Source: Styela clava (lineage: Eukaryota; Chordata; Ascidiacea; Stolidobranchia; Styelidae). Taken from it: a stretch of DNA of 64,000 nucleotides. Every line of letters begins with the position of its first letter. The stretch's first letter is position 1. The notes beneath the pieces were generated by a model, which worked only from the letters and a program-made list of their open reading frames with translations, was not told the DNA's origin and ran no database searches. Shown piece by piece: positions 30,785-56,628 of this stretch. The position numbers were made by a program, and so were the translations under genes. Location of the stretch: assembly GCF_964204865.1 (NCBI RefSeq), contig NC_135263.1, positions 4,714,501 through 4,778,500 of the forward strand. The letters are read 5' to 3'.

Positions 30785-32326
30785 TCAGATATTTCTGAAA
30801 CTGTCTGGTTGCTGATCATCTTTAAAACTGTTATGAAAAGAAACCGTTTCATTTGCAGATTTATATTCAACTCTTTGTTCATCGCAACTCGCTGCTATAT
30901 CAGCTATAACCTTAGTGCCCAAGTTATCAAGTGCAAATGCCGTAGCTCCAAGATTCACTGCGGCCCCCATGGCTAGATTTGTGGCTTCCGCTGCATCTGG
31001 TCCATATTTATATTCCATATTCTTAACTGTTGCTGTGGTAACGGCTTGGGCAATAGTTGAGCCGGCTTTTTCCAGTTCTGTCCAGATTTTACCGAATCCT
31101 GCAAGCCCCGATTTCACCACTTTTATCGCACCGTACACATTAGTGCTCGTATTTTCTGGGCTATCTTCTATTGCCTTCGTGAAATATGGGGCAACTTGTT
31201 GACCAACTGAAGTTGTGACCGAACATAACCACTGAATCAACCAATTTTTTACCCGGACTGTGGTATCAGCTGCATTGTATGTATATTCAAGGCCTCTTTT
31301 GATATATGGATTGACCGTTACTTTCCCTTCTGCTGGGGTCAACTTTGCTTTAATATTGTTTGCACTGCTTTCAACTAAATTGGTAGCATAGTCTGTCCCA
31401 TTTCGGACATGTTGGGACAAAGCGGTCGCTCCATTTGTTACCGATGCTGCCATGCGGTCACTCATGCTTGGCGGAATGTAATCATCCGCTTCTGAAAATG
31501 CTCCTATAAATTCTGATAAATCAACAAATCCTTCGTCTGGATTTTCAATTTGAAAAGCAGCATAAGTTTGAAGAATATTCTCGAACATTTCCACATACTC
31601 TCTCGACACATTGCTCGAAATTACGACCCCTATTGCGTACCCTTCTTGAATTCCATCTTCTGTGCACTTGGGGAACATATAGGCACCGTTCGCAGATTTC
31701 AAAACCGGCATCTGGTTATTTGCGAGTGGATACACCCAGTCTCCGACTTGAAGTATAGCTTGAGGTCCTCCTGGTGTTACAGAATCTTCCTTCAATAATA
31801 CAATTTGTAAGGATGCTGGGTAAGACGGAGGCATTGATTCTACTTGGCTCTCTGCTGAGACAAAATATATTTGTGCGCCACTCTCTATAGATAAAAGTGG
31901 ATCGGCCATAATGTCACTATCGTGGAATTGGGGACCAGACTGAGATGAAAGTGGGTCGTGTAGAGAATATGAAGGCGGGCTTTCGGGCTGTGGAACATCG
32001 TGATTAACTGGTTCATCAAAAGATTGTAAATGATAAATTCTCTGTCTTATATTAGCTATGGTTGATATGATCTGTTCTTGCATCTGCCTGGCTTGTTCCC
32101 ATCCTGCACTGGATTGTTCAAAATCGTGGATATTGTGTCTCAAACCATTCTCACTATGTCTCAAAGCCTGAAGATAGAGTGCCATAGCGTCTGCGTTGTT
32201 GTTTGCATCATCTTGTGCCAAAGCCTGCGAAGCTAGAGACACTGATTTAGCATGGCATGATCTGATTTCGTTGAGTATTTCGTCAAAGGCTGGAGGTGCT
32301 GACGGTCGAATTACTTGCTGTGCCAT
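30785..32326 (-). CDS. SPART: spartin paralogue A, single exon, 513 aa
   Basis: Spartin (SPG20) is an adaptor on endosomes and lipid droplets; loss of the human gene causes Troyer syndrome. I start at the ATG at 32326-32324 (MAQQVIRPSAPP). The in-frame extension to 32389 lacks family similarity. Residues about 13-100 form the MIT domain (KSVSLASQALAQDD; LYLQALRHSENGL; AGWEQARQMQEQI), which in the family binds ESCRT-III. There are two PPSY motifs at residues 117-120 and 166-169; PPxY motifs recruit Nedd4-type ligases in the human protein. A conserved block follows (SGAQIYFVSAES..., then LQVGDWVYPLA). The C-terminal half is the senescence/lipid-transfer domain (KVVKSGLAGFGKIWTELEKAG; MGAAVNLG). 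No intron is needed over 1.5 kb. A diverged sister copy lies at 49328-50854 in the same orientation. Confidence 0.93.
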   Translation of the reverse strand: MAQQVIRPSAPPAFDEILNEIRSCHAKSVSLASQALAQDDANNNADAMALYLQALRHSENGLRHNIHDFEQSSAGWEQARQMQEQIISTIANIRQRIYHLQSFDEPVNHDVPQPESPPSYSLHDPLSSQSGPQFHDSDIMADPLLSIESGAQIYFVSAESQVESMPPSYPASLQIVLLKEDSVTPGGPQAILQVGDWVYPLANNQMPVLKSANGAYMFPKCTEDGIQEGYAIGVVISSNVSREYVEMFENILQTYAAFQIENPDEGFVDLSEFIGAFSEADDYIPPSMSDRMAASVTNGATALSQHVRNGTDYATNLVESSANNIKAKLTPAEGKVTVNPYIKRGLEYTYNAADTTVRVKNWLIQWLCSVTTSVGQQVAPYFTKAIEDSPENTSTNVYGAIKVVKSGLAGFGKIWTELEKAGSTIAQAVTTATVKNMEYKYGPDAAEATNLAMGAAVNLGATAFALDNLGTKVIADIAASCDEQRVEYKSANETVSFHNSFKDDQQPDSFRNI

Positions 32327-34524
32327 GGCTTTATAGTTTGAAAAATATACTGTCACCCCGATATACCAAGTTACTGCCAAATTACCCATTCATCGGGTTT
32401 TATTGCGCCTACTTCTGCCCGATATACGTGGCCTAAAGCCCGCTATATCATTTCCCGGTAATTCACCTGCATGTAAAATGAGTCTTAAAAAGGGGATTTC
32501 CCTTTGAATCTTGTGATCTCTGAAAATGACATCACCATTCGTCAAGCGTCACAGCTATGAGCCTATGATTCAGCTTTCAAAGCTTTGTTTAGGCTGCAAA
32601 CACCATCGAGATGTCATCCACAAAAAATCTGCATATCGATAAATAAATTAATGGACATAAACGAGGAAAAGTCAAGAATGAAAAGAGCAGACCAAACCAA
32701 TCAAGAACTTGAAATGAAAAATTGAAAATTTTTATCTGAATCATTTAAATTTTTAGACCAATATATCACATTTTTTTTTTATATCAAACTCATATGAATC
32801 TAACACAATTAGAAAACTTTAGTTGCTTGTTTTGATCATAAATCATGTACGGAGACCAGTTGACCTAGTTACAACCGCGAGATGTCAGACGTCAGCAATT
32901 TATTTTCTTCGTTCGAGTGTTGCCAGATTTTATGATCATTAATACATCAATATATATTTTTAAAACACATCTTGTACGAATAAAACAAAAAATGTTATTT
33001 CCAAGTGTGAAATTATTGTTAATAAAGGAATTTTGATTTAAAAAAAGTAATGCATGCGCTCTATTATCCACCGTATCTGCATTGATTTCAAATATTTGAG
33101 TGATTGTGGCAAAGGTTTATGTAGGTCGTAGAATGCAGTCGGTTTCAGTTCGGTCGGCGCCATTTTTTTTTCATAATTGAGGCGTTTATAAAAATATCTG
33201 AATTTCAATTGCCTATTATTTATTTATCGTTATTTAAAGGTATTTATTATTTTATTTATTCTTCAAAAATTGATCAATCCACACCAAGGAACTATAAAAA
33301 AAAATTTTTACGGAAATTATGAATTAATGTGGAATATTTTTCCCTCAAAAGTCAGATAGTGTATCTAGAATTAGATTTATTGCTGGAAATGACTTGTGTG
33401 TTATAGAAACAGAATTAGTATCACATTTGTTCATGAATTGTCCATTTGTAAAACAATACCGTAGGCCTAGGTATATGATTACCGTATGCAGGTAGGCTAT
33501 GTTTCCTGATTATCGTGAAAATAACTGGCAGAAACAATTTAATTGATTATGAAACTTGTGTATTATTACATTTGAGTCCCCCTTATCATGCACATTTATT
33601 GAATGTAAAAAAAATGATATTATTTTGTTTAACGATAACGAACTCACTAACGCTAGCGATCTCTCACATATCGGGATCGTTACGCCGAGTAAAACAGCTT
33701 GCTCGATTTCGATTGATTGTCTGTGCGTCTTGGATGACAGTTAGTACTGTAGTATACCTCGGATGGCCTTATTACATTACTGTGGCATCGTAGTGCAGTA
33801 GTGAGTGATATTTTTTTGGCGGATTTTGCGGAATAAACACTGTAACTGCTTAAATAACGCCAAACAGTAGTACCATGCTCAATTATTATTTTTAAGATTA
33901 GTTATGCGAATAGTCAGCTGATAGTTTACATAGACTTCGGAAGTGAAATATATAACATATATTTTTGACATATTGTTTTGTTGAAATTTGTAGTTATGTA
34001 TGTATGGTTATTACAGTAGGGCACACTTTCCAAATTCCAAGAATGTCCCGTTGGTTCAATAAAATAAACACTTCTATGTGTCTCAGAAACGAGGGGCATC
34101 GTGCTCAACGGCAGATGCATCTTATTGGGCCATGCTTGTCTCGATAATAATCTACATTATTCCTGGCCGTCACATGATCTAAATTCCCATTATTTGCTAA
34201 AAACTCTAAAATGTCATGGTGAAAAAAAAATTTTCTTTTAGTAAATCGGATTATATTTTCCTGAGGAACTCAATGATGACGTTTTCTAGCTACTTCGTAG
34301 TTTTTTGTGCAGCTTCATTTTACTATATTTTCACCTATTATTAGAGGTGACAATGTCCAGACGTCCTTTCCCTTGTTTATGGGATTCTTTGGGACGAGAC
34401 AATGTCTCTCAATCTGTAAGGTGTGCTGTACTGTATAATGATACTAATCAAACCATTCACATTTCAGATCCGTTACCTAACATCCATATATTTGACCTAA
34501 TATTAATTTATTCCCATCACCAAT
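32327..34524. other. divergent intergenic region upstream of spartin A and symplekin
   Basis: The promoters of both flanking genes should lie here. A GGCGCCATTTTTTTT motif near 33158-33173 could be a GC-containing core-promoter element, but this is only suggestive. I see no coding segment longer than chance and no clear transposon ends. A candidate splice acceptor for symplekin is listed separately. Confidence 0.5.
34415..34467 (+). other. 5' UTR splice acceptor (cis or SL trans-splice) before symplekin
   Basis: CATTCACATTTCAG ends at 34467, 57 bases before the symplekin ATG. A possible cis donor GTAAGG at 34415 would make a 53-base intron. Otherwise the acceptor would serve SL trans-splicing, which the similar sites before NELF-A and YAE1 suggest. 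Confidence 0.45.
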
Positions 34525-37500
34525 ATGGGGAAACCCAAAAAAACTGGTACAAAATCGCAAAGGTCATCAAATTCCAAAGACCAAGATGATGAGTCAGCAT
34601 CTTCTCATCAGTCAACATCAGAAAGAGTAATTGATCTGTTAAATCAGGCTTCTATGGCCTCAACGGACCCTGACAAAGTTAACAAACTCAAACAAGTTCA
34701 GGAATTAATTGTGAATAAAGAACCAGCATTACTGGATAGTTTTACTGATGAAGTTCTAGCATTCCAAGCTGATAGGTCGCATGACGTTAGAAAATTTGTT
34801 GTCGGATTCATGGAAGAGGCGTGCAAAAAAGATAATGAACTTCTCATGAAAGTAATGGCGAATTTAAATTTATTACTCGCTGATACCAATGCGAATGTCA
34901 CTAAAAAACTCATTCAGTCTATGACACAGTTATTTAGAATTGTGATCTATTGGTTAACAAAGGGTAGTTTCATCTCTGACAGTCATAAAGCTTGTTGGAA
35001 AGTGACATGCAATATTCGAGATCATATTTACGAATTACTGGATTCTGTCAATGACGGAGTCCGAACCCAAACTGTCAAATTCGTTGAAAAAGTGATCTTG
35101 ATTTTGTCAGAGATACAGCGAGGATCAGAGGTACCTAAGAAAACAGAACCTGCGTCTTCTATTGATGAGATTCCATTAAACCACGCATTACTAAAACGGG
35201 ATGAACTAAAAGCAGACGGAGAAAAAGCTCTTCAGAAATTGTTGGGTTTTATTGCTAATCCTGCTATATCGAGCGTTAATCTTATGGCAGCCATGGGAAC
35301 CTTATCAGCCATCGCAAAGCAAAGACCACAATTTATGGGAACGGTAGTACAAGCATTTGAAGCATTACATGCAAATTTACCACCAACACTGGCAAAAACT
35401 CAAGTCGCGAGCGTGAGAAAACATTTGAAAATGCAACTAATGAACATGTTACGGCTTTTTTCATCAACACAATATCATCCACAAATTACCAATCTACTTT
35501 ATGACTTGGGTACGACATCATCTGAGATAGCAAAAAATATGCCGAAATTGTCACAACGCCAAAGTGCCGGTAGCTCGCGAAAACGTAGCCCGGATGAAGA
35601 TAAAGGAGAGGGGAGTGGAAATAAAAAAATGAAAAAAGAGGTGAACGAATATGATGATGATGTTGAAATAGGACCTTCTACGAGCTCAGCACCTGCCCCT
35701 GTCCCATCAGAACCTGTGGTCAATCAACACAGTGTTGCTATTGATATCACAGCTAAACAGTTAGTCCCTTTATTATCACCAGAAAATGTCGCTAATTTAG
35801 TATTATTGAGCATGGTTATGTTGCCCGATAAAATGCCAGACGCGTTTCAAGCTTCATACACCCCTATTGAATCCGCGGGCACAGAGGATCAGATCAGTCA
35901 TTTAGCGAGATTACTTTCTATACAAATGACAGCCATGGGTGTCGGATCTGGAGTGCAAAAAGCTGCTGAAATGGCGGCGGAAGAAGACGCAAAAAAGAGA
36001 GAAAAGAAGTTAGAAGAAGAAGGAAAACAGAAATTACAAATTCAAACTGTTATAGGAGGAACAACAAAACCAACACCAGTTCAAGAAGACACTGCTCAAG
36101 ATAAATCGAAGAAAAATATCGAAGCAATGATATCATCTCAGACAGTCGTACCGAACCGTGGTTTGCCTCGCAGAATCCAGGGTTTTCGATTAGAAAGTAT
36201 CACTACCCCTCTCGATTTAGACACAAAAGATAAAATCATCAAAAATGCAGTTTTGAGAGTCTTGAGATCAGAACAAGCTGCTAACGCTGCTGGAGTTCAT
36301 GCCCAATGGTCAAAAATTTTAACCAGTCTTGTGGCACAGTTTGGTGGAGATCTTCATAGAGCTTTAGCAATGTTTATTTTAGAAGATATTAGGAATCGTT
36401 CTTCCCTTGCATTTGCATGGTTGTATGAAGAATTCAATATATATTTAGAAAACAGTCGTGGCTCGAATGACAAATCTGCACAAGAAAATTACGATGCCTG
36501 TCTGACAGGACTTTTACAAGGATTCAGAGAAAAACCAGAAACACGAGACAGTCTTTTCAATAAATTGGTAATGCAGGCACCTTTGTTAACTGATGGGGCG
36601 ATAAAACAAGTCCGTTTGTATTGCGAAGATGAAAAAAGATCACAATCGGGAATTAAACTTGTTAAGGACTTATTGCATTACAGAATAACGAGAAAAATGC
36701 AGTTTCTTCGTTTATTACTTGATCTTTGCGTCAGTAAAAATGAAAGTACCCAAACCGAAGCTGTTGAATGTATAAAATCAATTTTCCTACAAATTGAATT
36801 ACAGGATTTCATCCGAACATATGCTGTCACTCATCTTGAATATTTATCAAACTCCGCACCACCTTTGACCCTAGTCCCAGAGGGAACACCGGTAGATGCT
36901 AAATCAACATGGACGGAAACCCAAATGAAACAATGCATGACGTTATTTCTCGCTTTGCTACCGTTGGATCATAATTTAATCGAAACACTTGCCGAAGTTT
37001 ATGTAAAAACAAGCGCAGATGTGAAACGAGTTGTCTTACGAATCCTTGATAAACCTGTGAGCCAAATGGGAATGGAATCGCCACAATTATTGCGCCTCGT
37101 TGAAGGATGTCCAAAAGGTGCGGAGACTCTTGTTACTAGAATGTTGCATATACTTACAGACAAGACCCACCCAACTGTAGAACTGGTGCAGCGTGTCACA
37201 GACTTGTATGCAAAACGCGTCCCTGATGTACGTTTCCTTATACCAGTCTTGAACGGTCTCGAAAAGAATGAAGTTTTAAAAGCTCTTCCGAAGCTTGTTC
37301 GATTGAATCCTCCGGTGGTGAAAGGAGTATTTAATCGATTGCTTGGAGTCAATAGAGGACAACAATCCGAACCATCTGTGAGTTCTCTGTCACCTGTGGA
37401 GTTACTGATCGCACTTCATAATATGGATTCAAATACTGCTGATGTGAAAAGTGTAATAAAAGCTACAAGTTTATGTTTTGCTGAAAAAGCAGTTTACACA

Positions 37501-38379
37501 TCGGAAGTTTTGGTTACTGTTATCAACCACTTGGTGGAGCAAGCAGAAATTCCGACTCTGTTAATGAGAACGGTAATTCAGTCCTTGATCACTTATCCAC
37601 GTTTATCAGGTTTTGTTATGAATGTTCTTCAAAGATTAATTTTAAAAAAGGTTTGGGAACAAGAAAAAGTATGGGATGGATTCATAAGATGTTGTCAGCG
37701 TATGAAACCCCAGTCGTTTCAAGTGTTACTACAGCTTCCTTCCGTGCAATTATCTTCTGTTTTCGATTCCGCGCCGGAATTACGGGAACCTATGTTGCAA
37801 TACGTAGAACGCTTTACTCCGCAACAAAAACTTCACGTCAATAAAGACGTGCTGGCGTTGTTAGAACGGAAACCAACTCGAATTGAACTGGAAAAAGCTG
37901 TAACTTTGACTATTCAACAACAAACTGCGGAACTTGCTCTCACCGTTGCTGAACAGCAAGCCAGAGAAGAACAACAAAAGATGGCCGAAGAATATGATAG
38001 AATCCAGAAAGAAAAAGAACAGAGTGAAGCTAAAACAAAACTAATCGATGAACAGGTAAAAAAGGCGGCAAAAATGCTTCAAGAACAAGAGGAAAGAACG
38101 AAAGCACTCGAGCTGTTCCAAAAACGTGGATTCACCAACGTTAAAATGGAAACGAACGAAGAAAATGTTGCTCGAGGAGGATTTCCCACTGCAGCTCCGG
38201 GTCCGTCTCAAGTTGTTGCACCAGGGATTAGCTCGACACCAATGTCCAGTGAACAACAACAACCACAGCAAATGAAATTGACAATGTCTACTGATGCAGA
38301 AGTTCCACAGGGGAACAGAGATCGGCAGCGTAGCGGTACTCCTACGTTAGATGAAGCACCAGAGCCAACCATTACTTGA
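34525..38379 (+). CDS. SYMPK: symplekin, single exon, 1284 aa
   Basis: Symplekin is the nuclear scaffold that joins CPSF and CstF for cleavage and polyadenylation, and works with CPSF73/100 in histone mRNA 3'-end cleavage; it also binds the SSU72 phosphatase. Length is close to human symplekin (about 1274 aa). Residues about 30-350 form the N-terminal HEAT/ARM domain (LLADTNANVTKKLIQSMTQL; FISDSHKACWKVTCNIRDH). A basic nuclear-localisation-like segment (SSRKRSPDEDKG ... KKMKK) follows near 350-375. The conserved C-terminal symplekin domain covers about 880-1130 (LPKLVRLNPPVVKGVFNRLL; FIRCCQRMKPQSFQVLLQLP). A charged coiled coil (QQKMAEEYDRIQKEKEQ) and a low-complexity tail end the protein. 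The ATG (MGKPKKTG) is the first in frame after a splice acceptor. An unbroken 3.9 kb frame is unusual for this gene, which has many introns in vertebrates. Confidence 0.96.
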   Translation: MGKPKKTGTKSQRSSNSKDQDDESASSHQSTSERVIDLLNQASMASTDPDKVNKLKQVQELIVNKEPALLDSFTDEVLAFQADRSHDVRKFVVGFMEEACKKDNELLMKVMANLNLLLADTNANVTKKLIQSMTQLFRIVIYWLTKGSFISDSHKACWKVTCNIRDHIYELLDSVNDGVRTQTVKFVEKVILILSEIQRGSEVPKKTEPASSIDEIPLNHALLKRDELKADGEKALQKLLGFIANPAISSVNLMAAMGTLSAIAKQRPQFMGTVVQAFEALHANLPPTLAKTQVASVRKHLKMQLMNMLRLFSSTQYHPQITNLLYDLGTTSSEIAKNMPKLSQRQSAGSSRKRSPDEDKGEGSGNKKMKKEVNEYDDDVEIGPSTSSAPAPVPSEPVVNQHSVAIDITAKQLVPLLSPENVANLVLLSMVMLPDKMPDAFQASYTPIESAGTEDQISHLARLLSIQMTAMGVGSGVQKAAEMAAEEDAKKREKKLEEEGKQKLQIQTVIGGTTKPTPVQEDTAQDKSKKNIEAMISSQTVVPNRGLPRRIQGFRLESITTPLDLDTKDKIIKNAVLRVLRSEQAANAAGVHAQWSKILTSLVAQFGGDLHRALAMFILEDIRNRSSLAFAWLYEEFNIYLENSRGSNDKSAQENYDACLTGLLQGFREKPETRDSLFNKLVMQAPLLTDGAIKQVRLYCEDEKRSQSGIKLVKDLLHYRITRKMQFLRLLLDLCVSKNESTQTEAVECIKSIFLQIELQDFIRTYAVTHLEYLSNSAPPLTLVPEGTPVDAKSTWTETQMKQCMTLFLALLPLDHNLIETLAEVYVKTSADVKRVVLRILDKPVSQMGMESPQLLRLVEGCPKGAETLVTRMLHILTDKTHPTVELVQRVTDLYAKRVPDVRFLIPVLNGLEKNEVLKALPKLVRLNPPVVKGVFNRLLGVNRGQQSEPSVSSLSPVELLIALHNMDSNTADVKSVIKATSLCFAEKAVYTSEVLVTVINHLVEQAEIPTLLMRTVIQSLITYPRLSGFVMNVLQRLILKKVWEQEKVWDGFIRCCQRMKPQSFQVLLQLPSVQLSSVFDSAPELREPMLQYVERFTPQQKLHVNKDVLALLERKPTRIELEKAVTLTIQQQTAELALTVAEQQAREEQQKMAEEYDRIQKEKEQSEAKTKLIDEQVKKAAKMLQEQEERTKALELFQKRGFTNVKMETNEENVARGGFPTAAPGPSQVVAPGISSTPMSSEQQQPQQMKLTMSTDAEVPQGNRDRQRSGTPTLDEAPEPTIT

Positions 38380-39374: not shown

Positions 39375-41621
39375 ATGGCCGCCCCTCGTGCCATGAGAGA
39401 CAATGATACTGCTTTATGGCTTCATAATAAGCTGGGTTCCGCTGAGGAACTCTGGGTTTCGTCAAGTATTGGAGGAATTATAAAGACTGACACAATTGAC
39501 AATATATTCCGCTGTTTTTCTGTCTTATCGACAACAGTAAAAATGAAACTTTTATTGGGAATATTACATCTTCCTCGGAGAAGTCTAGAAGAGATGAAAC
39601 ATACTATTGATGGGCTAGTGGAACTCGCTTTAGACGACGGCGACCAGTGGGTAAAACTCGTTGCCAACGTGGTAAAAACTTACCCAATGAGGTGTAAGTT
39701 GAGTCTTGATTTAAGCTCAAATCAAATCGCGGAAAATGTCATTCACCAGTTGGAAGAAAAAGTTCGGGATTCTGATGTTTTTGCAACTTTGCCTTTAGAG
39801 TGTCAATACGTTAATAAAAATGCACTTCAAAATTTGGTCGGTAATCAACCCCCTCCGCAGAGACATTTTGCGCTTAAAAGAAAGCCGAAGTCCGCTGCAT
39901 TGAGAGTGGACTTGATGCAGAAGTCAACTAATGCGTCAAGTCAAGTTAAAAAGGGTGTATCGAACAAAATGGTTCCTGTAAAACATAGAGACATGACAAG
40001 AAAGCTTTCGGATGCAAGTCCTATGAGGGGAATACCAAAAACACCGGCTGGTGCACATCGAGCTGAAGGATTCAGGACGCAGTCGACTCCAGGCTCTCAC
40101 ATGACACCTGGTGGGGCTGGCAGAACAGCGTCGAGATTTTCATCAAGAGCAGAGCGAGGAACAAAATTGCTGGATATTTCTGAGCAACCTCTCGGAATTC
40201 GAGAACAGAAAAGACGAAAGAAGCAACAGCAGGAAGATGACAGTTCACAGCAGACTCAGCCTGAAGAAAAAATGGACGAAACACCGGAGTATGCCGCTGG
40301 TCTCGTCCCTCCAACAATGGCACAATCTACTGCACCCGAGGAAGAGCCATCGGTTCCAACAGATGCAAATGATGACACAGATGAGGCAGATGAAGATCAA
40401 CAAGAAGAAATGGAGGATGAAGATGAATACTCTGCTCATTATAGCCCTGCAGAATCACCAACCAACAAAATGCCGGTTAATTATAGTTCTATTGACCAAG
40501 AAGAAATGCCTGCCCCGCCTTCAGCCCCACCCCCTGAACCAACTAAGAAAAATCCGCCAATTGAAAAACGTCCTTCGATTGAAGATTATCCTGTATATGC
40601 AATGCCTGCAACACCTTCGCCGTATTTTAAACCGACGCCAACTCCAGCTCATATTATTACTTCTCCTTCACATTCTAAACCGGCTTTATCAAGTCCGAAC
40701 ACCCCATCTTCTCACACCTCATCATCTAGCACTTCATCTAGCAGTCCTTCCCCCGCTCGCAGAACGCAAGAGCAACCAACAAATATTCCGAGTCCAGTAA
40801 GGGTTATGCAAAGCCCACAAATCACACAGAATAAGCAAATCAGTCCTGTGCACTCTCAACCCCAGCAGACAAATTTATCACTTCCAAAAAACACTCAAAA
40901 CTTTCCTCAAGTACCAAGGTTCTATTCCCCACCTGTACAAAACCAGCCAAGATTACATACCCCTTCTCAGCCCCAGATTTCACAACAACAGCAGCAGCAA
41001 GTCTCAATACAACAACCAACAACGGTGCTACATGGTTACCCTGCAGGAATTTATCGTACTCAAGTACCGGTGCGACCTGGAATGCCTTATATTGTATCTC
41101 CTAATATGGTGCAACGTAGCGTACAAATCCCTGCACAAACTATAAGATTCGCTCCTTCCGCAAACGAAGGACAAATTCGAAGTTCAATTCCCGGCTTACA
41201 AACAGCTGTTTCGAGTAACCTACAACACCAGTTACAATTACAGCAGCATGCTCAACAGCAGGCTGCTGCAGCAGCAGCTCAGCAAGCTGCACAGCAAGCC
41301 CAACAACAGCAGCAACAGAAAAAGACTTTGACACTTACACATGAGCAGTGGTACCAAGCACAAGAAATGTTCCGAAACGCTAACAGACTAACTAGACAAG
41401 AGAAGTCGATTATATTAGGTTTTATGGCGGGGTCAAGGGACAACCCCAACCCAGATAAGGGTGATGTGGTGCAAATTACTCTCTCTGAGCATGAGCAAAC
41501 TGTACAGAACCCTGTTGGTGGAAGCTTGATTCCTGTTGTGGTTGAAACTTATTTTGAAATGAATTATAGGACTGGTACCACTGCTAAAAAACAAAGATTA
41601 AAACAAGTAGTGGCTCGGTAG
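39375..41621 (+). CDS. NELFA: NELF-A, negative elongation factor A, full-length, single exon, 748 aa
   Basis: NELF-A is the subunit of the NELF complex that contacts RNA polymerase II and stabilises promoter-proximal pausing. The start (MAAPRAMRDNDTALWLHNKLGSAEELW) matches the family N-terminus. Residues about 10-185 form the NELF-C-binding/HDAg-like region (KLLLGILHLPRRSLEEMK; LPLECQYVNKNAL; FALKRKPKSAALRVDLMQKST). Then follow GIPKTPA and the conserved RGTKLLDISEQ. The long middle is acidic, then Pro/Ser/Gln-rich with poly-Q and poly-A. The C-terminus is the conserved 'tentacle' end (AQEMFRNANRLTRQEKSIIL; GFMAGSRDNP; VETYFEMNYRTG). It is longer than human NELF-A (about 530 aa) because of the low-complexity region. 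A polyadenylation signal AATAAA is at 41636-41641. Its 3' part is tandemly duplicated downstream. Confidence 0.95.
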   Translation: MAAPRAMRDNDTALWLHNKLGSAEELWVSSSIGGIIKTDTIDNIFRCFSVLSTTVKMKLLLGILHLPRRSLEEMKHTIDGLVELALDDGDQWVKLVANVVKTYPMRCKLSLDLSSNQIAENVIHQLEEKVRDSDVFATLPLECQYVNKNALQNLVGNQPPPQRHFALKRKPKSAALRVDLMQKSTNASSQVKKGVSNKMVPVKHRDMTRKLSDASPMRGIPKTPAGAHRAEGFRTQSTPGSHMTPGGAGRTASRFSSRAERGTKLLDISEQPLGIREQKRRKKQQQEDDSSQQTQPEEKMDETPEYAAGLVPPTMAQSTAPEEEPSVPTDANDDTDEADEDQQEEMEDEDEYSAHYSPAESPTNKMPVNYSSIDQEEMPAPPSAPPPEPTKKNPPIEKRPSIEDYPVYAMPATPSPYFKPTPTPAHIITSPSHSKPALSSPNTPSSHTSSSSTSSSSPSPARRTQEQPTNIPSPVRVMQSPQITQNKQISPVHSQPQQTNLSLPKNTQNFPQVPRFYSPPVQNQPRLHTPSQPQISQQQQQQVSIQQPTTVLHGYPAGIYRTQVPVRPGMPYIVSPNMVQRSVQIPAQTIRFAPSANEGQIRSSIPGLQTAVSSNLQHQLQLQQHAQQQAAAAAAQQAAQQAQQQQQQKKTLTLTHEQWYQAQEMFRNANRLTRQEKSIILGFMAGSRDNPNPDKGDVVQITLSEHEQTVQNPVGGSLIPVVVETYFEMNYRTGTTAKKQRLKQVVAR

Positions 41622-42916: not shown

Positions 42917-43071
42917 AAAGTTCGGGATTCTGATGTTTTTGCAACTTTGCCTTTAGAGTGTCAATATGTTAATAAAAATGCGCTTCAAAATTTGGTCGGA
43001 AACAACCGCCACCGCAGAGACATTTTGCGCTTAAAAGAAAGCCAAAGTCCGCTGCATTGAGAGTGGACTTG
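42901..43071 (+). other. duplication junction with copied splice acceptor and short upstream frames
   Basis: CTTATTTTTTAG (ending 42902) and AATTTTTTTATATA are the copied upstream flank of YAE1, followed directly by NELF-A interior sequence starting AAGTTCGGGATTC. The acceptor may therefore now supply 5' ends to the truncated NELF-A copy. Short frames start at ATGs 42933 and 42966 and end before 43072. A one-base deletion near 43005 relative to unit 1 puts the upstream NELF-A remnant out of frame. Confidence 0.7.
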
Positions 43072-46000
43072 ATGCAGAAATCAACTAACGCGTCAAGTCA
43101 AGTTAAAAAGGGTGTATCGAACAAAATGGTTCCTGTAAAACATAGAGACATGACAAGAAAGCTTTCGGATGCAAGTCCTATGAGGGGAATACCAAAAACA
43201 CCGGCTGGTGCACATCGAGCTGAAGGATTCAGGACGCAGTCGACTCCAGGCTCTCACATGACACCTGGTGGGGCTAGCAGAACAGCGTCGAGATTTTCAT
43301 CAAGAGCAGAGCGAGGAACAAAATTGCTGGATATTTCTGAGCAACCTCTCGGAATTCGAGAACAGAAAAGACGAAAGAAGCAACAGCAGGAAGATGACAG
43401 TTCACAGCAGACTCAGCTTGAAGAAAAAATGGATGAAACACCGGAGTATGCTGCTGGTCTCGTCCCTCCGACAATGGCACAGTCTACTGCACCCGAGGAA
43501 GAGCCCCCGGTTCCAACAGATACAAATGATGACACAGATGAGGCAGATGAAGATCAACAAGAAGAAATGGAGGATGAAGATGAATACTCTGCTCATTATA
43601 GCCCTGCAGAATCACCAACCAACAAAATGCCGGTTAATTATAGTTCTATTGACCAAGAAGAAATGCCTGCCCCGCCTTCAGCCCCACTCCCTGAACCGAC
43701 TAAGAAAAATCCGCCGATTGAAAAACGTCCTTCGATTGAAGATTATCCTGTATATGCAATGCCTGCAACACCTTCGCCGTATTTTAAACCGACGCAAACT
43801 CCAGCTCATATTATTACTTCTCCTTCACATTCTAAACCAGCTTTATCAAGTCCGAACACCCCATCTTCTCACACCTCATCATCTAGCACTTCATCTAGCA
43901 GTCCTTCCCCCGCTCGCAGAACGCAAGAGCAACCAACAAATATTCAGAGTCCAGTAAGGGTTATGCAAAGCCCACAAATCACACAGAATAAGCAAATCAG
44001 TCCTGTGCACTCTCAACCCCAGCAGACAAATTTATCAGTTCCAAAAAACACTCAAAACTTTCCTCAAGTACCAAGGTTCTATTCCCCACCTGTACAAAAC
44101 CAGCCAAGATTACAGACCCCTTCTCAGCCCCAGATTTCACAACAACAGCAGCAGCAAGTCTCAATACAACAACCAACAACGGTGCTACATGGTTACCCTG
44201 CAGGAATTTATCGTACTCAAGTACCGGTGCGACCTGGAAAGCCTTATATTGTATCTCCTAATATGGTGCAACGTAGCGTACAAATCCCTGCGCAAACTAT
44301 AAGATTCGCTCCTTCCGCAAACGCCATTCTCCAAGGACAAATTCGAAGTTCAGTTCCCGGCTTACAAACAGCTGTTTCGAGTAACCTACAACACCAGTTA
44401 CAATTACAGCAGCATGCTCAACAGCAGGCTGCAGCAGCAGCAGCTCAGCAAGCTGCACAGCAAGCCCAACAGCAGCAGCAACAGAAAAAGACTTTGACAC
44501 TTACAGGTGAGCAGATGTACCAAGCACAAGAAATGTTCCGAAACGCTAACAGACTAACTAGACAAGAGAAGTCCATTATATTGGGTTTTATGGCGGGGTC
44601 AAGGGAAAACCCCAACCCAGATAAGGGTGATGTGGTGCAAATTACTCTCTCTGAGCATGAGCAAACTGTACAGAACCCTGTTGGTGGAAGCTTGATTCCT
44701 GTTGTGGTTGAAACTTATTTTGAAATGAATTATAGGACTGGTACCACTGCTAAAAAACAAAGATTAAAACAAGTGGTGGCCCGGTAGTATTTTACATATA
44801 AAATAAAATTATTGCAATTCTTACAAAAGTGTTTAAATGTAGTTGTCTTCTTGTCATATCGTTGAAACAAGGGTCTGTGTGAAAGTTTGATGGCTTTTTT
44901 CTGCAGTTTCGAATTTGGAGAATAGATATTCTGATCACTGAAGACCTCACCCAAAATAGTAACAGGAAGAATAGTATTCATAGATAAATCCGTATGGCTT
45001 TTCGAATGAATGCCACCGACTTTTAAATTTATAGCATTGGGAAGCCCCATTAAGTCCTTTCAGCTGGCCCTGCTGGAATATACAGGAAATTTGAAAATAC
45101 GACGAAAATCATGTCCCGACCACCCTGAGTTATTAGTTGTGATAATTTTGCCAGACATTCACAAGCTAATTTTCTTACGGAAAAATCCCTGGGAGCGCAT
45201 AAATATTGGCCAATGTGGCTTTTGATTTGTTTAGTACGAAACCTAATAACTTTGTCTCATGTTTTTGTTGGATTAATAACTATTGAATGAATAGTTATAT
45301 ATTTCACTGCCATTTCATGTTACTGTAACTTACGAAAGTCTGTCATTATTGCTGCAAATTATGTGAAAGATTACTCAGGGCAGTGGTGTTCAACCTTTAT
45401 TTTCTTGTCGATAGAAATCTTAGGCCCACAAACCTTATTAAGATTTTCGAGTTTCGTAAAAATGTTAATATAAACAATACAGTAAAAGTGTCAATGACCA
45501 AACTAATCTTCTTGTTTATTTAATAATAGCTTGTCAAGTTGAACTTCCATCCTTGGTTCTCCAGCCATACATGTTTCTTCAGGCCTACTGTAGGCCCAAC
45601 AGAAACTCCAGACTCATTTTAAAAATCCTGACTGATTTAAAAAATCCTCAAGCCCACTTGGACCACCTTGAAAAAACACTGACTTAGGCATATAAAAGTG
45701 GAATATTGCGCCAATTTGAATCTTTATACTGAGTAAAGATTATTATAGACTTTGTTTCAATGAAACTTAAAAGCAATGTTATCTGCAGAAGATTCATTTC
45801 AAAATATCTGTGCTTTTTTGGTAAAATTAGCCATTTTTGCAGTTTATCTCTGTGACAGAAATACCAAATGGATAAAATGCTTGAGACACAATTCATGATG
45901 TTATTATAATGATCTATGAATTTTATTGTGAATCATGATTTTTTCACCCAATCTCAAATGCCTGGACAAAATTTTTGGACATTTAAACACATCAACAACC

Positions 46001-49327: not shown

Positions 49328-50854
49328 TCAATGTTTATTAGGCTTATCATTTAACATGTTTGATTTTGTACATTTTGAATTATCTTCTTTTGCTTCTGCT
49401 GAATATTCTTTTAAAACAGCTTTTCCTGTGTCTTTTGCAGCTCTTTTTGCAATCGCTTTTAGTCCAAGATTATCGAGATTGAATGCGGTTTTGCCGACGT
49501 TAACAACTGATCCCATTGCATGGCTTGTAGCAGTACCAGCCTCCTGTCCATATTTCAGCTGGACGTTCTCTACTGTGGCAGATGAAACTGATCGTGCAAT
49601 AGCTAAACCGGATTTTTCCAGTTCTGCCCAGACTGTACCGAATCCAGCCAGTCCAGCACCAGCAACTTTGATCACGCCATCCATTTTAGATTCTCCTTTT
49701 TGGTCTTTTGATGTTACCGAATCTGGTAAAACTTTTTTACTATAATCCTTAACATGTGGGGCAATTTCTTGACTTACTTTGCTTGTTATAGCACATAGAC
49801 CATCGACCAAAAACCTACTGACTTTAACAGTTGCTCTTGATGCTTCATGGGTGTAATATAACCCCTTTTTAACAGTTGGGTTTACTGTAGAAGGCTCATC
49901 ATTTGGTGTTATACTTTCTTTCAATTTATTTGACCCCTTTTTTATCAGATCTGTTGTAATTTCTGCTCCCTTATTGAGGCCGTAGCTCAACCATTCAGCA
50001 CCCGTTTGTATACCACCAACAATTTTATCACTTATAGACGATTCCTCCGTAACATGTACAGAATCGGACAAGTTCAAAACATCTTCTCCTTCAGCGATTT
50101 CTTGTGAACGAAACAGTGCCAAATTCTGCAGGATATTCTCGAATGTTTCTACCAACCCTGGATCTATTTCACTAGATATTACTATGCCAATGGAACCAGG
50201 CGATATGCCACCAGATGTGCGATTCGGAAACACATAAGCACCATTTGACATTTTTAAGGCCGGTGTCTCACCGCTTACAAGAGGGTAAATCCAATCCGAA
50301 ACTTGCACAAATGCTTGTCCAGTGCTTTCTAGGACATGGACTTTCAAGAACGTAGGATAAGAGGGTGGGGTCGTCCCTACTTCTTGATCCGCAGATACGA
50401 AAAATATCTGGACACCGCTTGGGATGGCAAGTAGTTCCAAAGCACCAGACATGTCATACATTTCCTCCGCTGCGACAGATAATGATTTATGACCTTCTGG
50501 TAATGCTGAAGAATAAGTAGGAACATCCGGTGAGTTGTTATAACTATGAGCATCTGCATTAGATTCCTGAATATCATAAAGTCTTTGCTTTGTTTTTACT
50601 TGTGCTTTAAGCATATTTTCTTGTTGGCGTTTTGCAACTTCCCATTCGGCTCCAACATATTCTGGCCCAGTAATATCCACCCTTACTCCATCTTCTAAAA
50701 ATTTCAAAGCCTTCATATAAATTTCAACAGCAAGGTTTGTATTTCCATTTTCATCAGCTTCCAGAGCATTCCCAACGAACGTCATAGAGTTTTGATAACA
50801 TGCATTGATTTCACTTAACTTATTGTAATCTGCACTTTTACCACCAGTTGCCAT
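49328..50854 (-). CDS. SPART: spartin paralogue B, single exon, 508 aa
   Basis: Second spartin-like gene. The start ATG is at 50854-50852 (MATGGKSADYNKL). The MIT domain covers about residues 8-95 (VGNALEADENGNTNLAVEIY; AEWEVAKRQQENM). A single PPSY motif is at 163-166; paralogue A has two. The conserved block IPSGVQIFFVSADQEVG and then VQVSDWIYPLVSGETPALK follows. The C-terminal senescence domain is intact (IKVAGAGLAGFGTVWAELEKS; MGSVVNVGKTAFNLDNLGL). Identity with paralogue A is moderate, so the duplication is much older than the NELF-A one. The shared single-exon structure suggests either an intronless ancestor or a retrocopy that later duplicated. Confidence 0.92.
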   Translation of the reverse strand: MATGGKSADYNKLSEINACYQNSMTFVGNALEADENGNTNLAVEIYMKALKFLEDGVRVDITGPEYVGAEWEVAKRQQENMLKAQVKTKQRLYDIQESNADAHSYNNSPDVPTYSSALPEGHKSLSVAAEEMYDMSGALELLAIPSGVQIFFVSADQEVGTTPPSYPTFLKVHVLESTGQAFVQVSDWIYPLVSGETPALKMSNGAYVFPNRTSGGISPGSIGIVISSEIDPGLVETFENILQNLALFRSQEIAEGEDVLNLSDSVHVTEESSISDKIVGGIQTGAEWLSYGLNKGAEITTDLIKKGSNKLKESITPNDEPSTVNPTVKKGLYYTHEASRATVKVSRFLVDGLCAITSKVSQEIAPHVKDYSKKVLPDSVTSKDQKGESKMDGVIKVAGAGLAGFGTVWAELEKSGLAIARSVSSATVENVQLKYGQEAGTATSHAMGSVVNVGKTAFNLDNLGLKAIAKRAAKDTGKAVLKEYSAEAKEDNSKCTKSNMLNDKPNKH

Positions 50855-51980
50855 CTTTATAAATAAATATTAAACACTCTTGCACATAATAAAATAATAG
50901 TTTTTCAATTAGATAGTAAATTGGGAAATAATCGTTTCGTTTCCATGTTTCGGTTTTTTAATTTAAATCCCATCCCCCCAAATATAAATATGAATAATAT
51001 AATAAAAATCTAAACAAATACAAATTAATACCATTAGCATGATGTCATTAATTTAATATATTCCAATATTATGTCCACAGGAATTCAGTTTATTCACTAA
51101 CTGAAAAACAGTAACTAAATCCCTCCATCCGCCCTTCCTAATTGCTATGATAAATCGGCGGGGACTCCCCTATAAACATCATAATCACGTGCACAAGCGC
51201 GTGACGATAATCGATATCCTGTTTTATGAGAGAAAGAGATTTATTGCCACAAAACAAAGTCAACATTATTATAAACATAATACAATAACGAAAATATGTC
51301 AGCGGTAATGACAGTGATTGATTATTGCGGACATGCCCAATGATAAGATTTTCGCAAAAAGCATTTTTTTATTGGGCATTGACCGGGATAAAAATGGAAT
51401 AATAGGGACGAGAAATAATATCATCACAGATTCAGCATTATAGCGAGCGCATGAAGAAAAGTATCATTTCCCACCTCAATTAGTTCACGAGAAGAATACA
51501 GGAAAAAAAATTGTAATAAGCACATGAAATGGATGTTTCCCCCGATTTTGATGCTTATTTTGACAGTGTTTCTGCTGATAGTCGCTTATAAAATGGTTTA
51601 CATATTTAAAACTTCTATTTTTATTAAAATATTCAACCACGTGCAATTTTAGCCCAGTGGTTTAACTATCTCTGTGGTTTAACGCTGCAATTCCTGATTA
51701 TTGCACCTAAAGTAAGGCGCGTCGGAAGAAAGAATGACAATCAAGCTATTTGTTTTGAAACTGATTTTTGGAAACACAAATAAAAACTGACAAATAACAC
51801 GCAACACTACGAAAACAACGCAATGTTTACAACCACGATTAAATATCTGTCTGAACGGAAGAAATATCCGAGTACCACAAATTACAATAGTTACGTCCTT
51901 GTTAACTTATTGATGATTAGCCTTTGTTACGACAATAAAAAGGAAATCAATCCCGGCGGAAAAAAAGTATTACAATAAAA
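50855..51980. other. upstream flank of spartin B
   Basis: Probable promoter region for the minus-strand spartin B gene. It has a CACGTG E-box (51186-51191) next to GCGCGTGACG, the only recognisable candidate regulatory motif. No coding potential seen. The left border of a large hAT element begins at 51981. Confidence 0.45.
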
Positions 51981-52466
51981 CATTTGTTCTCAAAGTGGGG
52001 TCCGCGGTCGCATAGGGGTCCGCGAAGCGATTCTGGGAGGACCGCGAAGCAACCGACACAGAAGCACTGCTGTGATGGTTTTCATAAGAGAGAGTGCTGA
52101 AAAAAGTTTTGATATTTTTTGTAAAAAATAAACAGTTCTCTACAAGAAGTAAAACATGATTTAGGGCCCATTCACACCAACGCAGTGCGTTGCGTTATAT
52201 TTTGACGCAGATGCAACGCAATGCGCTGAACTTGTTCACACTGCGTTGCGTTGACGCATGTCAAAAGGTCAAAAGGCCCGTATTTTGGATCAGGAACTTG
52301 ATAGGCATTGTGTTTAAGAGCAGAGTAGGTAAGACAGCTGTTGTTTGGATATAAATTTGAGACGTTTTGGCGATTGTATAATGCCGTTGTATATCAATGA
52401 TAGTTATTATTTTCAAAACAATGAAAAATGTACAATGATTTTTATACAGATTGATTAGATATCGGT

Positions 52467-53441
52467 ATGGCAGGTATGGACTTAGAACATCTCATAGTTG
52501 AGGTCAGAGAAAGGAAGTGTCTTTACGCTGTAAAAGAAGCAGCCTACGGGGATACAATTAAAAAGGGAAAGGCGTGGGAAGAGGTCGCAGAGGCGTTGGG
52601 AAGAAGTGGTAAGAAAATGAGTATGAGCCTAGAATAGTTATCTGTTACTATATTGCATCTAAAACCAATTAGGAAGAAATTAAGTAAATGCAAGATAACA
52701 GAATAAACTTCAAAGTTAATTGCTTTTCAGTGACAGATTGTAAGACCAGATGGAGATCTACAAAGGATAGGTATAGGAAAGAGAAAAGAAGGGAATCAGA
52801 GGCTACGAGGAGTGGGGCAGCAGCAGGGGGATATAGAGCATGGAAGTTCATGGAGGTGCTAAAGTTCCTAGACGAGCACGTCGACTTTCGAACGTAAGTA
52901 TTATTTGCTTTCGTAACAAACGCAATAATATTTCTAATCCCTACCCCACAGTATCAACGGTCGCAAATGACTGACTGACTACTCCAGATCTCGGAACCCC
53001 AAACTATGACCATGTAACTTACTCTTTTCCAAAGAACGTCTTCAAATATTGACGAGGATGTCACTCTTGTGGTGCTCCAAGATGGAAATAATGTCCAAAT
53101 GAGTGGTGAAGCTGACAACTTACCTAATATGAACACCAGTTGCACTACATCAGCATCTGATAAAGATGCACTTACAAAAGCGACTGATCTTGACGAAACT
53201 ATCATGAGTCTTGTCAACAAAGGTATTTAATTCTAAAACCTTTCCATGAGGCATATTTGTGTCACACAAATGATTTCCAATCTAATAATCATACCTTTAT
53301 TTACATACAGAGAGTGATGATGCTGAAAAATTTGCATTGAGCCTCGTAGATACTCTACGCAGGCTACCAGTACAACGTTTGCAACTTGCGAAAATTAAAA
53401 TTCATGAGCTTCTGTACAACATCGAATTTGGGGAAATATAA
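52467..53441 (+). CDS. Harbinger accessory protein with MADF and BESS domains, 4 exons, 207 aa
   Basis: In PIF/Harbinger elements a Myb/SANT- or MADF-like protein binds the element's ends and helps bring the transposase to the nucleus and DNA. Exons 52467-52608, 52731-52893, 53035-53222 and 53311-53441 sum to 624 nt in frame with GT/AG borders. Residues about 1-100 are a MADF domain (LEHLIVEVRERKCLYAVKEA; AWEEVAEALGRS; CKTRWRSTKDRYRKEKRR; AWKFMEVLKFLDEH). An acidic linker follows. The C-terminus is a BESS motif (FALSLVDTLRRLPVQRLQLA then KIKIHELLYNI), used for protein-protein contact. No disabling mutation is seen. The start ATG is the first in frame; an internal Met (residue 4) is the next option. 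Confidence 0.88.
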
Positions 53442-53479
53442 TTTACTTGGAACACATTGTTTTCAATTATTGATTATAT

Positions 53480-53698
53480 GGTAATCCTGAAGTATGTGAA
53501 CGAAGATGGCAGACACCGAACTTAGTATGTCTACCAGGTTAGGTTTAGGCAAAATTTTCAGGTACAAATACTAAGGGAGTCGCTTGTCTAGTCCCCGAAC
53601 TAAAATAAGGAAAATTGGAATAAATTATGGCCTAAACCTAACCTGGTAAACATACCAGGTTCAGGTGTCCATCTTGGTTCACATCCTTAGGGAGTACC
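53480..53698. mobile_element. family-M1 long-TIR MITE inside the Harbinger element
   Basis: Ends GGTAATCCTGAAGTATGTG and CATCCTTAGGGAGTACC are inverse. The inner sequence (GAAGATGGCAGACACCGAAC, then ACCAGGTTAGGTTTAGGC; ACTAAAATAAGGAAAATTGG) matches the element at 27862-28097. Flanks GATTATAT and AAATATAC match at 5 of 8, so it is not a fresh insertion. It sits between the two convergent Harbinger genes. Confidence 0.75.
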
Positions 53699-53767
53699 AA
53701 ATATACTAGCATATCAGATTTGTAATACCTCTGCAGTTCAGTAATCATCTATAAAATTGTTAAAAGA

Positions 53768-56174
53768 TCAGCAATGGTGCCATTGCCAGGGCACAGCACC
53801 TTCCCCTGCAAAGTAGTTGGCAAAGGTGTTGCGAACAGATTGTGCGCTCTGTGTTGCACGGCCACCACTCCCGGGTATGTCATGCAGCAGTTGAGTGGAC
53901 ACTGTAATATTATCGTCAACTGGTGCAGCCCCAGCAACATCTCTTCTCAAAAAATTGTGTAGGCAGCATGTTGCCTTTATGACAGAGTCGATATTGCTGG
54001 GCTTCAATGGTATTGGTCTGTGATAGACTCTCCACTGATTAGCTAAGATGCCAAATGTGCTCTCTACCATTCTTCTTGCCCGCGATAGGCGATAATTAAA
54101 GATTCTTTTCTCCTGCGAGAGACCATTGCCAGGAAATGGTCTCATCAGATTTTCTTTCAAGGGAAAGGCTTCATCCCCAATGAATACGAACGGAACAGTA
54201 GGTCCATCCGTTACTGGCAATGGCCTGAAAATAAATTTGCCCTATTTAGCCAGAAATACAAAATGAGGTTTAGGTAGGAGGTTTTTCTGCATAAACATGC
54301 TTCATTTTTATGGGTTATTACTAAGTTGTTAAAATAATAAGCCTTTATTACTTAGGTGTAAAGAAAAATCATAGCCTGTTTCGTTATAGAAAAAAACATC
54401 AGCAGTCATTTTCAAGTCTAGGTGGACTACTAGCTTAAATAACCCACCTTGGTGAGGGTAGACTCAAGGTTCCATTCTGCAGGCGACGGCCAAAACATGA
54501 GTTCGCAAATATTCCCCCATCGCTTGCTCTGCCATAGGCGCCAATGTCCACCGCAAGAAATTTATAACTGAAAAATATGAATTTCATTGAATTCTTGATG
54601 GCACTGTTTGGAATAAATGCCCATGTATAATCCACATAATATTGGGAAATAATTGGTTTCTAATTTATTTAGCCATTCATAGAAAGCAACCACAAGTGGT
54701 AAGTTACAAAAATTGTTTACCTATGAATACAAATTAGTGTGATACAAAATCAGGTTTAATATTTACCATGCATCAACGATAGCCAGGAGCACAATGCTAT
54801 GCGTTTTTTTGTAATTGTAATACAACGATCCAGCATTGCTAGGACATTTAACAACAACATGCTTTCCATCAATAGCGCCCAAACAGTTTGGAAATTGCCA
54901 TTTTTTGTGAAAAACATCGGCAACCTCAGTCCATTCGGAACAACTTGATGGGAATTTGAGGAAATCCCCTCTCAATGCATCCCATATTGCAGAACATGTT
55001 TCTGAGACAATGTTGCTCACAGTTGATATGCCAAGACGATAGCTGTTAGCTATAGTTCTATAGCTATCGCCAGTAGCTAAGAATCTGAAAAAATGAAAGA
55101 TAAAGTAAAGCAATTGACACATTATGTAATAATAAATAACAAAATATGCTCATGTGTGAATGAATTTATAAATAATAGTCTATCATAAAATGGAAACATA
55201 TTTTTATATGCGGCCAATGGCAAACACGAGTGCACATTATTATCAGATACAAGCTGATTACTGTGATGTTTATCCCTGGATATACAAATGTTTGTATTTG
55301 CTATCTGAATAAGTGTTTCTTAACCTGTTATATCATAGACATAAACTTCTGAATAGCTCATCCATATTTTTGGTTTCACAAAGTGATATAATGAACCGCT
55401 TTTGCTAACTTATCAGCTAATGTACCTCAATGTTACTGCAATTCTCTCTTCTGGTGGTATCGGCTTCCTGAATGCTGTAGCTTGTTTACTTATAACAGGC
55501 CCAACTAAAGTTATTAAAATTTGAAAGTCTTCGACTGACATGCGGAGGTAGGTCTCAAAATAGCTTCTCCTCTCCAATCTCATCTCTTTCAAAAGCCTGT
55601 GGTACTTGCCTGTTAACGTTACAATATTCAGATATTTCCCGTTAAGGTACCGGTAATCATTCAATATGATATATATTTTCAAACCTCTCAAATACTACTT
55701 TTTGCACTAAAATGAGCTGTAGACTATCAGTAGAGGGTACCGTAATACTACAGTACTATGATAAGCACTGTCCAGACTGTCAGAACACCTTTCAGCTTTT
55801 TAACTACTGAACTAGATCAAATACCTGAATACTGGAATATGGCACCGGTCTAAAGGGCTAGTATGGTATGTTAACTGTTAAATCTAGAACCATGTAAGTA
55901 GCAAATTCTGTTTATTACAAACGGCTAGAAATACGGTGCAGTCGTATACGTACGGTACCGTACCCAGGTACGGTACCGTACCGTACTGGGGTACGGTAGG
56001 CCTACCTACTGCTGTACTGTGAAAATACTGCAATACTGGTACCGTACCTCTAGTCTCTCTTCTCTGCAAAATAGGATGCACCCACCACCTTCTTCTTTTG
56101 CATCTATTTTTTTTATCCTTGCGTCTTTTCAGCCACAACAGTAATCCCAATTTTTGATGTTTGCTCAAAGCCAT
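53768..56174 (-). CDS. PIF/Harbinger DDE transposase (HARBI1-like), 5 exons, 401 aa, intact
   Basis: This DDE-type nuclease cuts and joins the element at TTA-like targets. Minus-strand exons 56174-56048, 55609-55426, 55084-54767, 54567-54448 and 54224-53768 join in frame to 402 codons including the stop, all GT/AG. The first exon gives MALSKHQKLGLLLWLKRRKD then RRWWVHPILQRRETRG, the typical family N-terminus. Then come YLRMSVEDFQILITLVGP, FRKPIPPEERIAVTLR and FLATGDSYRTIANSYRLG (helix-turn-helix-like). The DDE core has IDGKHV (D near 176), the VDIGAYGRASDGG aspartates (near 217-225) and RRMVESTFGILANQWRV (E near 304). FIGDEAFPLKENLMRPFPG is also conserved. The length fits autonomous Harbinger transposases and HARBI1 (about 350 aa). 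Being inside TIRs with TTA TSDs, it is a transposon gene rather than a domesticated one. Confidence 0.93.
55925..56050. repeat. GTACGGTACC palindrome cluster in transposase intron 1
   Basis: CGTATACGTACGGTACCGTACC, repeated as GGTACGGTACCGTACCGTAC and GTACGGTAGGCCTACC, then GGTACCGTAC up to the exon 1 donor at 56046. The units are self-complementary and mutually complementary, so the stretch can fold into alternative hairpins. Confidence 0.7.
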
Positions 56175-56628
56175 CGCCAAACCACAGAACAAAGCACCGG
56201 AACTCAACTCAAATCTCAGACAACGCAGCGCGTCAACGCAAAGGAATGTTTCCTCGAGAATTCGTTGCGTTGACGCAGTGCGCCAAAATGATGCGTTAAC
56301 GCAACAACGCAAGTTTACTTAAACAATTAAAGAATAACGCACTGGTGTGAACAGATGTGAATGGGCCCTTACATGACATAATCATTTGCATGATGAAACA
56401 AAACATTGTTTTCTGGCGCTTGCCTCTGACACCCTACTCGATACTAAAAAAAACTATTTTCCCAAACTATGGGTCACGAATCCGGATGGGTCGCGTGAAG
56501 ATTTTCCGGGGTCGCCTTTTTTGATCATGTTACATCCGAATACGTTGTTGACCCGCTCGTACGCGAATTGGATTTATTGCAACAATGCAAGTCTGCGAGA
56601 AATTACGTTTTTTTTTATCAGAGTCGTC

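Follow-up and report, generated by a model that had tools for sequence, protein, structure and literature searches.

Positions 52164-56368 of a 64,000-nucleotide stretch of Styela clava DNA (the window, in whose positions all coordinates are given unless stated otherwise) are very probably occupied by a complete, young two-gene PIF/Harbinger cut-and-paste transposon, whose family was recently mobile. The element is 4,205 bp long and is labelled C18 among the copies compared below. It was bounded by an exact pair of 13-bp terminal inverted repeats (TIRs), GGGCCCATTCACA on the left and its reverse complement on the right, with TTA directly outside both of them, and a longer ungapped pairing of the ends (52163-52203 with 56329-56369) was 71% complementary over 41 nt. 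These ends are beyond chance because both of them recurred in six near-identical copies with non-matching 500-bp flanks. An earlier note, made from the letters of the window, had described a complete PIF/Harbinger element with such TIRs and TTA on both sides and two cleanly spliced genes, and both descriptions agree with our results, the second at the level of gene prediction.

The two predicted genes were convergent. The MADF/BESS gene on the + strand had four exons encoding 207 residues, and the transposase gene on the - strand had five exons encoding 401 residues; all of the introns in the two models (7 of 7) were of the GT-AG type. In the Pfam search, the shorter protein matched MADF_DNA_bdg (1.4e-17) and BESS (2.4e-5), both above the curated cut-offs, as well as Myb_DNA-bind_4 (6.4e-7, above the Pfam cut-off). 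The transposase matched the whole DDE_Tnp_4 profile at residues 175-340 (6.3e-34, above the curated cut-off). Residues D176, D226, and E304, at computed positions, were present in the transposase of the window copy, and we take them from familiar motifs to be the likely catalytic triad. A sequence search of the PDB with the transposase gave a best match of only E = 0.81. Near the N-terminus, residues 16-29 formed a basic stretch, LKRRKDKKNRCKRRR, which, as a guess, could give the transposase nuclear entry on its own.

The recent mobilisation of the family was well supported by its copies. The species' own genome (376.6 Mb) was searched, and 40 of 2,692 first-look candidates were scored, so that all copy counts are lower bounds. 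At least six near-identical copies were found on six sequences (C18 in the window, C2, C13, C19, C1, and C9), their principal aligned stretches being 98-100% identical. When only the element sequence was aligned, the pairwise divergence was 0.119-0.358% (15 pairs). The 4,148 gap-free columns of the six copies contained 28 private substitutions (10 in C18, 5 each in C2 and C13, 3 each in C1 and C9, and 2 in C19) and no shared one, a pattern that is close to the star expected for a burst from one founder. TWA target-site duplications (TSDs) were present at five of the six copies, with TTA in C18, C2, C13, and C19 and TAA in C9. The earlier note had suspected recent activity and had suggested a comparison of copies across the genome; near-identical copies were indeed found, and a recently active family fits their divergence of 0.12-0.36%, the absence of shared substitutions in gap-free columns, and the TWA duplications at five of six. 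If 1e-9 to 1e-8 mutations per site and year are assumed, the divergence of 0.06-0.18% per lineage would place the burst roughly 0.06-1.8 million years ago.

Near-identity of this kind could also be produced by segmental duplication, gene conversion, or an assembly artefact, and at C9 a 926-bp unit of flank and element end was indeed duplicated in tandem with 100% identity. Against this stand the flanks: among the 12 flanks of 500 bp outside the ends of the six copies, no left-left or right-right match was found at E 1e-3. The only matches were between the right flank of C1 and the left flank of C2 and between the right flank of C13 and the left flank of C19, and both were internal to the flanks and resembled dispersed repeats. 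Without a match at corresponding positions, the six copies are separate insertions. Furthermore, five of the six had their own TWA duplication, and private indels and three different inserts distinguished the copies. Duplication or artefact is therefore very improbable, and segmental duplication was rejected on the TWA duplications and the unmatched flanks. A dispersed repeat made up part of the left flank of the window copy and was matched at 69-74% in the fetched loci L016/L008, L023, and L011/L004. When the joined flanks of the window copy were compared with the window and the fetched loci, no other sequence was found to span the joined site.

Several observations weigh against a complete element from a family that recently burst from one founder. 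A 6-bp GGTACC repeat insertion was common to C1 and C13, and C2 and C13 had similar 10-bp deletions, both of which depart from a pure star. These indels lie at short repeats and may each have arisen twice; the 10-bp deletions, which are located in the MADF gene, differ by one base. If the deletion was common to C2 and C13 by descent, a MADF-broken copy could have moved in trans. In addition, no 3-bp duplication was present at C1, and the left end of C2 was GAACCC instead of GGGCCC. The expected helix-turn-helix of the transposase was not clear, the Pfam match to Sigma70_r4 at residues 94-134 (0.034) being below the cut-off. Finally, only one of the six copies was uninterrupted and open in both genes, and a short burst that had already finished would look alike.

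That one copy was the copy in the window. C2 and C13 were full length and without inserts, but the MADF gene of C2 was frameshifted beside an open transposase frame, and both genes of C13 were broken. In C19, MADF exon 1 contained an 8-bp insertion and transposase exon 1 an in-frame one of 3 bp, and transposase intron 1 carried a 3,362-bp insert. In C1, both coding frames were open by exons, a 9,738-bp insert interrupted transposase intron 1, and a 30-base alignment gap was found in another intron. The transposase exon 2 of C9 was interrupted by a 3,938-bp insert. Judged by its frames, the window copy would work, and its activity today is possible but unproven. An intact copy is not thereby an active one, because this copy differed from its sisters in three private amino acids. 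Its transposase had K44 and F148 and its MADF protein G28, whereas all five sisters had another base at each site and encoded E, C, and R, respectively, where a comparable frame allowed a direct reading (the transposase in C2, C1, and C9, and MADF in C1 and C9). It also had the most private substitutions of the six, and four of its ten lay within one complex change at 52272-52275. The chance is a little short of even that the family burst recently but the window copy has already been disabled or weakened by these private changes, and would be mobile at most in trans. Neither frame was broken, however, the putative DDE residues were present, and an effect of K44, F148, or G28 on activity is hypothetical.

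The insert of C1 (L029) was a large palindromic foldback-type element with arms 95% identical over ~3.4 kb and with internal repeats, flanked on both sides by GAAAATAC, an 8-bp duplication. Since it lies inside a very young copy, the foldback family too has been mobile in the recent past. The insert of C9 (L014) had foldback-like ends with GCGGAGGT on both sides, and that of C19 (L011) had short inverted ends, CCAGTCTGGATT.../...AATCCAGTCTG, with ~9 bp duplicated. The tandem duplication at C9 was located at 5066-6920 of L038 (reverse-complement coordinates). Its unit combined flank with the initial 70 bp of the Harbinger copy, and the junction showed a 3-bp overlap; the duplication may have come about through aberrant repair at the end of the element. 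Either a simple tandem duplication or the footprint left by another transposon could explain the 8-bp insertion of C19 (L011), TAGAACAG, which lay beside TAGAACA at the equivalent of window position 52482.

Older relatives among the same 40 candidates showed ~68-84% identity by aligned piece and formed two sets. The closer set (C8 and C19b) had 81-82% identity and a synonymous divergence (dS) of ~0.15-0.24, and the distant set (C3, C16, C6, C1b, C9b, and C10) had a dS of ~0.50-0.83. The left end of four members of the distant set was GGGCCCGTTCACACCAACGCAATGC, that of C1b was ...AATTC, and none was seen in C6. C3 and C16 lacked a large middle part of the element, were 99% alike, and occupied two sites with TTA on both sides of each. 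Fairly recent movement is thus indicated for a deletion derivative too, presumably through proteins provided in trans. No left end turned up in the fetched kilobase to either side of three solo right ends (L024, L026, and L027). In-frame stop codons occurred in several older relatives, as many as 4 per transposase and 1 per MADF gene. The ratio of nonsynonymous to synonymous divergence (dN/dS) against the window copy was 0.15-0.44 in 16 comparisons covering both genes and eight older relatives; the value of 0.44 came from 63 codons of C19b and all of the others were at most 0.27. Purifying selection between the subfamilies has thus preserved both genes in the mobile lineage, even as individual copies decayed.

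Both genes being open, and the older relatives being under purifying selection, might also suggest a domesticated transposase and MADF gene pair with a host function, and the co-domestication of such pairs has been published (PMC9710019). In that paper the lack of related copies and of TIRs marks domestication, whereas the element here has TIRs, a TSD, and near-identical multicopy sisters. Domestication has next to no probability and was rejected on the ends, the duplications, and the multicopy state.

Alternatively, horizontal transfer may have brought the family in from another species not long ago. The near-star burst would suit such an arrival, as would the gap that separates the copies, less than 0.4% divergent, from the long relatives that come next, at ~81-84% identity; the only intermediate among the fetched sequences was a 208-bp right-end fragment at 91%. 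However, a snap-back repeat resembling a miniature inverted-repeat transposable element (MITE) sits between the convergent genes (GGTAATCCTGAAG...CTTAGGGAGTACC), and relatives of it with ~80% identity are scattered over the species' own genome. C8 and C19b align through the stretch of this nested repeat, while C3, C16, and their set do not. The lineage would thus have lived in this genome or in that of a close relative before the burst. The nested repeat is a mild argument against very recent entry from a distant species, and we consider horizontal transfer quite improbable.

The positions of the element's parts are listed in Table 1.

Table 1. Features of the PIF/Harbinger element in the window
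Feature	Position	Strand	Basis
TTA target-site duplication, left	52161..52163		sequence
Left 13-bp TIR, GGGCCCATTCACA	52164..52176	+	sequence, end pairing
MADF/BESS exon 1	52467..52608	+	gene model, Pfam
MADF/BESS exon 2	52731..52893	+	gene model, Pfam
MADF/BESS exon 3	53035..53222	+	gene model, Pfam
MADF/BESS exon 4, with stop codon; encodes BESS end	53311..53441	+	gene model, Pfam
Nested snap-back MITE-like repeat	53480..53698		sequence comparison; ends read from sequence
Transposase exon 5, with stop codon and putative catalytic E304	53768..54224	-	gene model, Pfam
Transposase exon 4, with putative catalytic D226	54448..54567	-	gene model
Transposase exon 3, with putative catalytic D176	54767..55084	-	gene model
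Transposase exon 2	55426..55609	-	gene model
Transposase exon 1, basic N-terminus	56048..56174	-	gene model
Right 13-bp TIR	56356..56368	-	sequence, end pairing
TTA target-site duplication, right	56369..56371		sequence

Elsewhere in the window, an uninterrupted NELF-A frame was found at 39378-41618 (Pfam 5.9e-46). A second frame at 42976-44784 matched residues 157-747 of it at 97%, lacked the NELF-A N-terminal domain, and by this likeness is a partial tandem duplicate of it. The unbroken NELF-A frame adjoined symplekin, one unbroken frame of 1,283 residues at 34528-38376. These genes were flanked by two frames on the - strand with a Senescence domain (30788-32389 and 49331-50869), which are presumably spartin-like.

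How the two proteins of the element would act is suggested by zebrafish Harbinger3 and rice Ping/Pong, in which transposition requires both proteins, the partner attaches to the ends and assists the entry of the transposase into the nucleus, and excision is usually precise (PMC2836001). By analogy, the MADF protein would bind the element ends and recruit the DDE transposase, which would cut the element out and insert it at TWA (here mostly TTA), and the insertion would duplicate the 3-bp target. From these systems we infer both the roles of the proteins and the chemistry of excision and insertion.

The earlier note had regarded a MADF/BESS partner in place of the Myb/SANT type as notable, and this view was not borne out. 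MADF is listed among the names for the Myb-like partner domain and treated as the partner in insects (PMC9710019), and a PIF/Harbinger origin has been proposed for a fish MADF protein (PMC11893794). Because these two papers already tie MADF to PIF/Harbinger, a MADF partner is ordinary for the group. BESS did not occur in PMC9710019 (0 occurrences) and was found only in reference titles among the passages shown of PMC11893794; a literature search judged by titles and the starts of abstracts returned no report of BESS on a still-mobile partner. In its MADF-plus-BESS layout, the partner protein here resembles host transcription factors such as those of the Drosophila MADF-BESS family. It is conceivable but unlikely that the BESS end is a docking surface for the transposase and that host MADF-BESS genes were taken from such elements with the docking motif in place. 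The element is a reasonable start for asking about the separate roles of MADF and BESS in transposition. It also offers a clean animal PIF/Harbinger family soon after a burst, with one copy open in both genes and its sisters variously decayed.

The element is an animal DNA transposon of a well-known kind and leaves the picture of the PIF/Harbinger superfamily unchanged. PMC4482050 gives for the PIF/Harbinger group a TWA duplication, two open reading frames, TIRs mostly shorter than 60 bp and usually beginning with A or G, and an average length of ~4,124 bp; the two-intact-frames criterion was used there to count 88 potentially active families. The element has a DDE_Tnp_4 transposase, a MADF second gene, a TWA duplication, short TIRs, and multiple copies at unrelated sites. 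Compared with this group of the PHIS superfamily, it shares the DDE transposase with a separate Myb/SANT-like gene, the 3-bp TWA duplication, short TIRs whose first base is G, and a length of ~4.1 kb. No difference of kind was found; the helix-turn-helix listed for these transposases (PMC4482050) was not clearly detected here. The other PHIS groups (ISL2EU, Spy, Pangu, and Nuwa) were ruled out by the MADF partner and the TWA duplication, since they are described with a YqaJ partner, a single open reading frame, or a non-TWA duplication (PMC4482050, PMC9179366). Zebrafish Harbinger3_DR, likened by description only, likewise encodes a DDE transposase together with a Myb-like DNA-binding partner (PMC9710019, PMC2836001). 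Its transposase is described as lacking a nuclear localisation sequence (PMC2836001), whereas the transposase here has the basic N-terminus, a difference that is suggestive only. Insect PIF elements and the co-domesticated transposase/MADF pairs (DPLG7/DPM7 and those of Anopheles and Lepidoptera) have the same MADF (Myb-like) partner beside the transposase gene; the domesticated Anopheles and Lepidoptera pairs are reported without TIRs or TSD (PMC9710019), whereas the element here is mobile, multicopy, and bounded by both.

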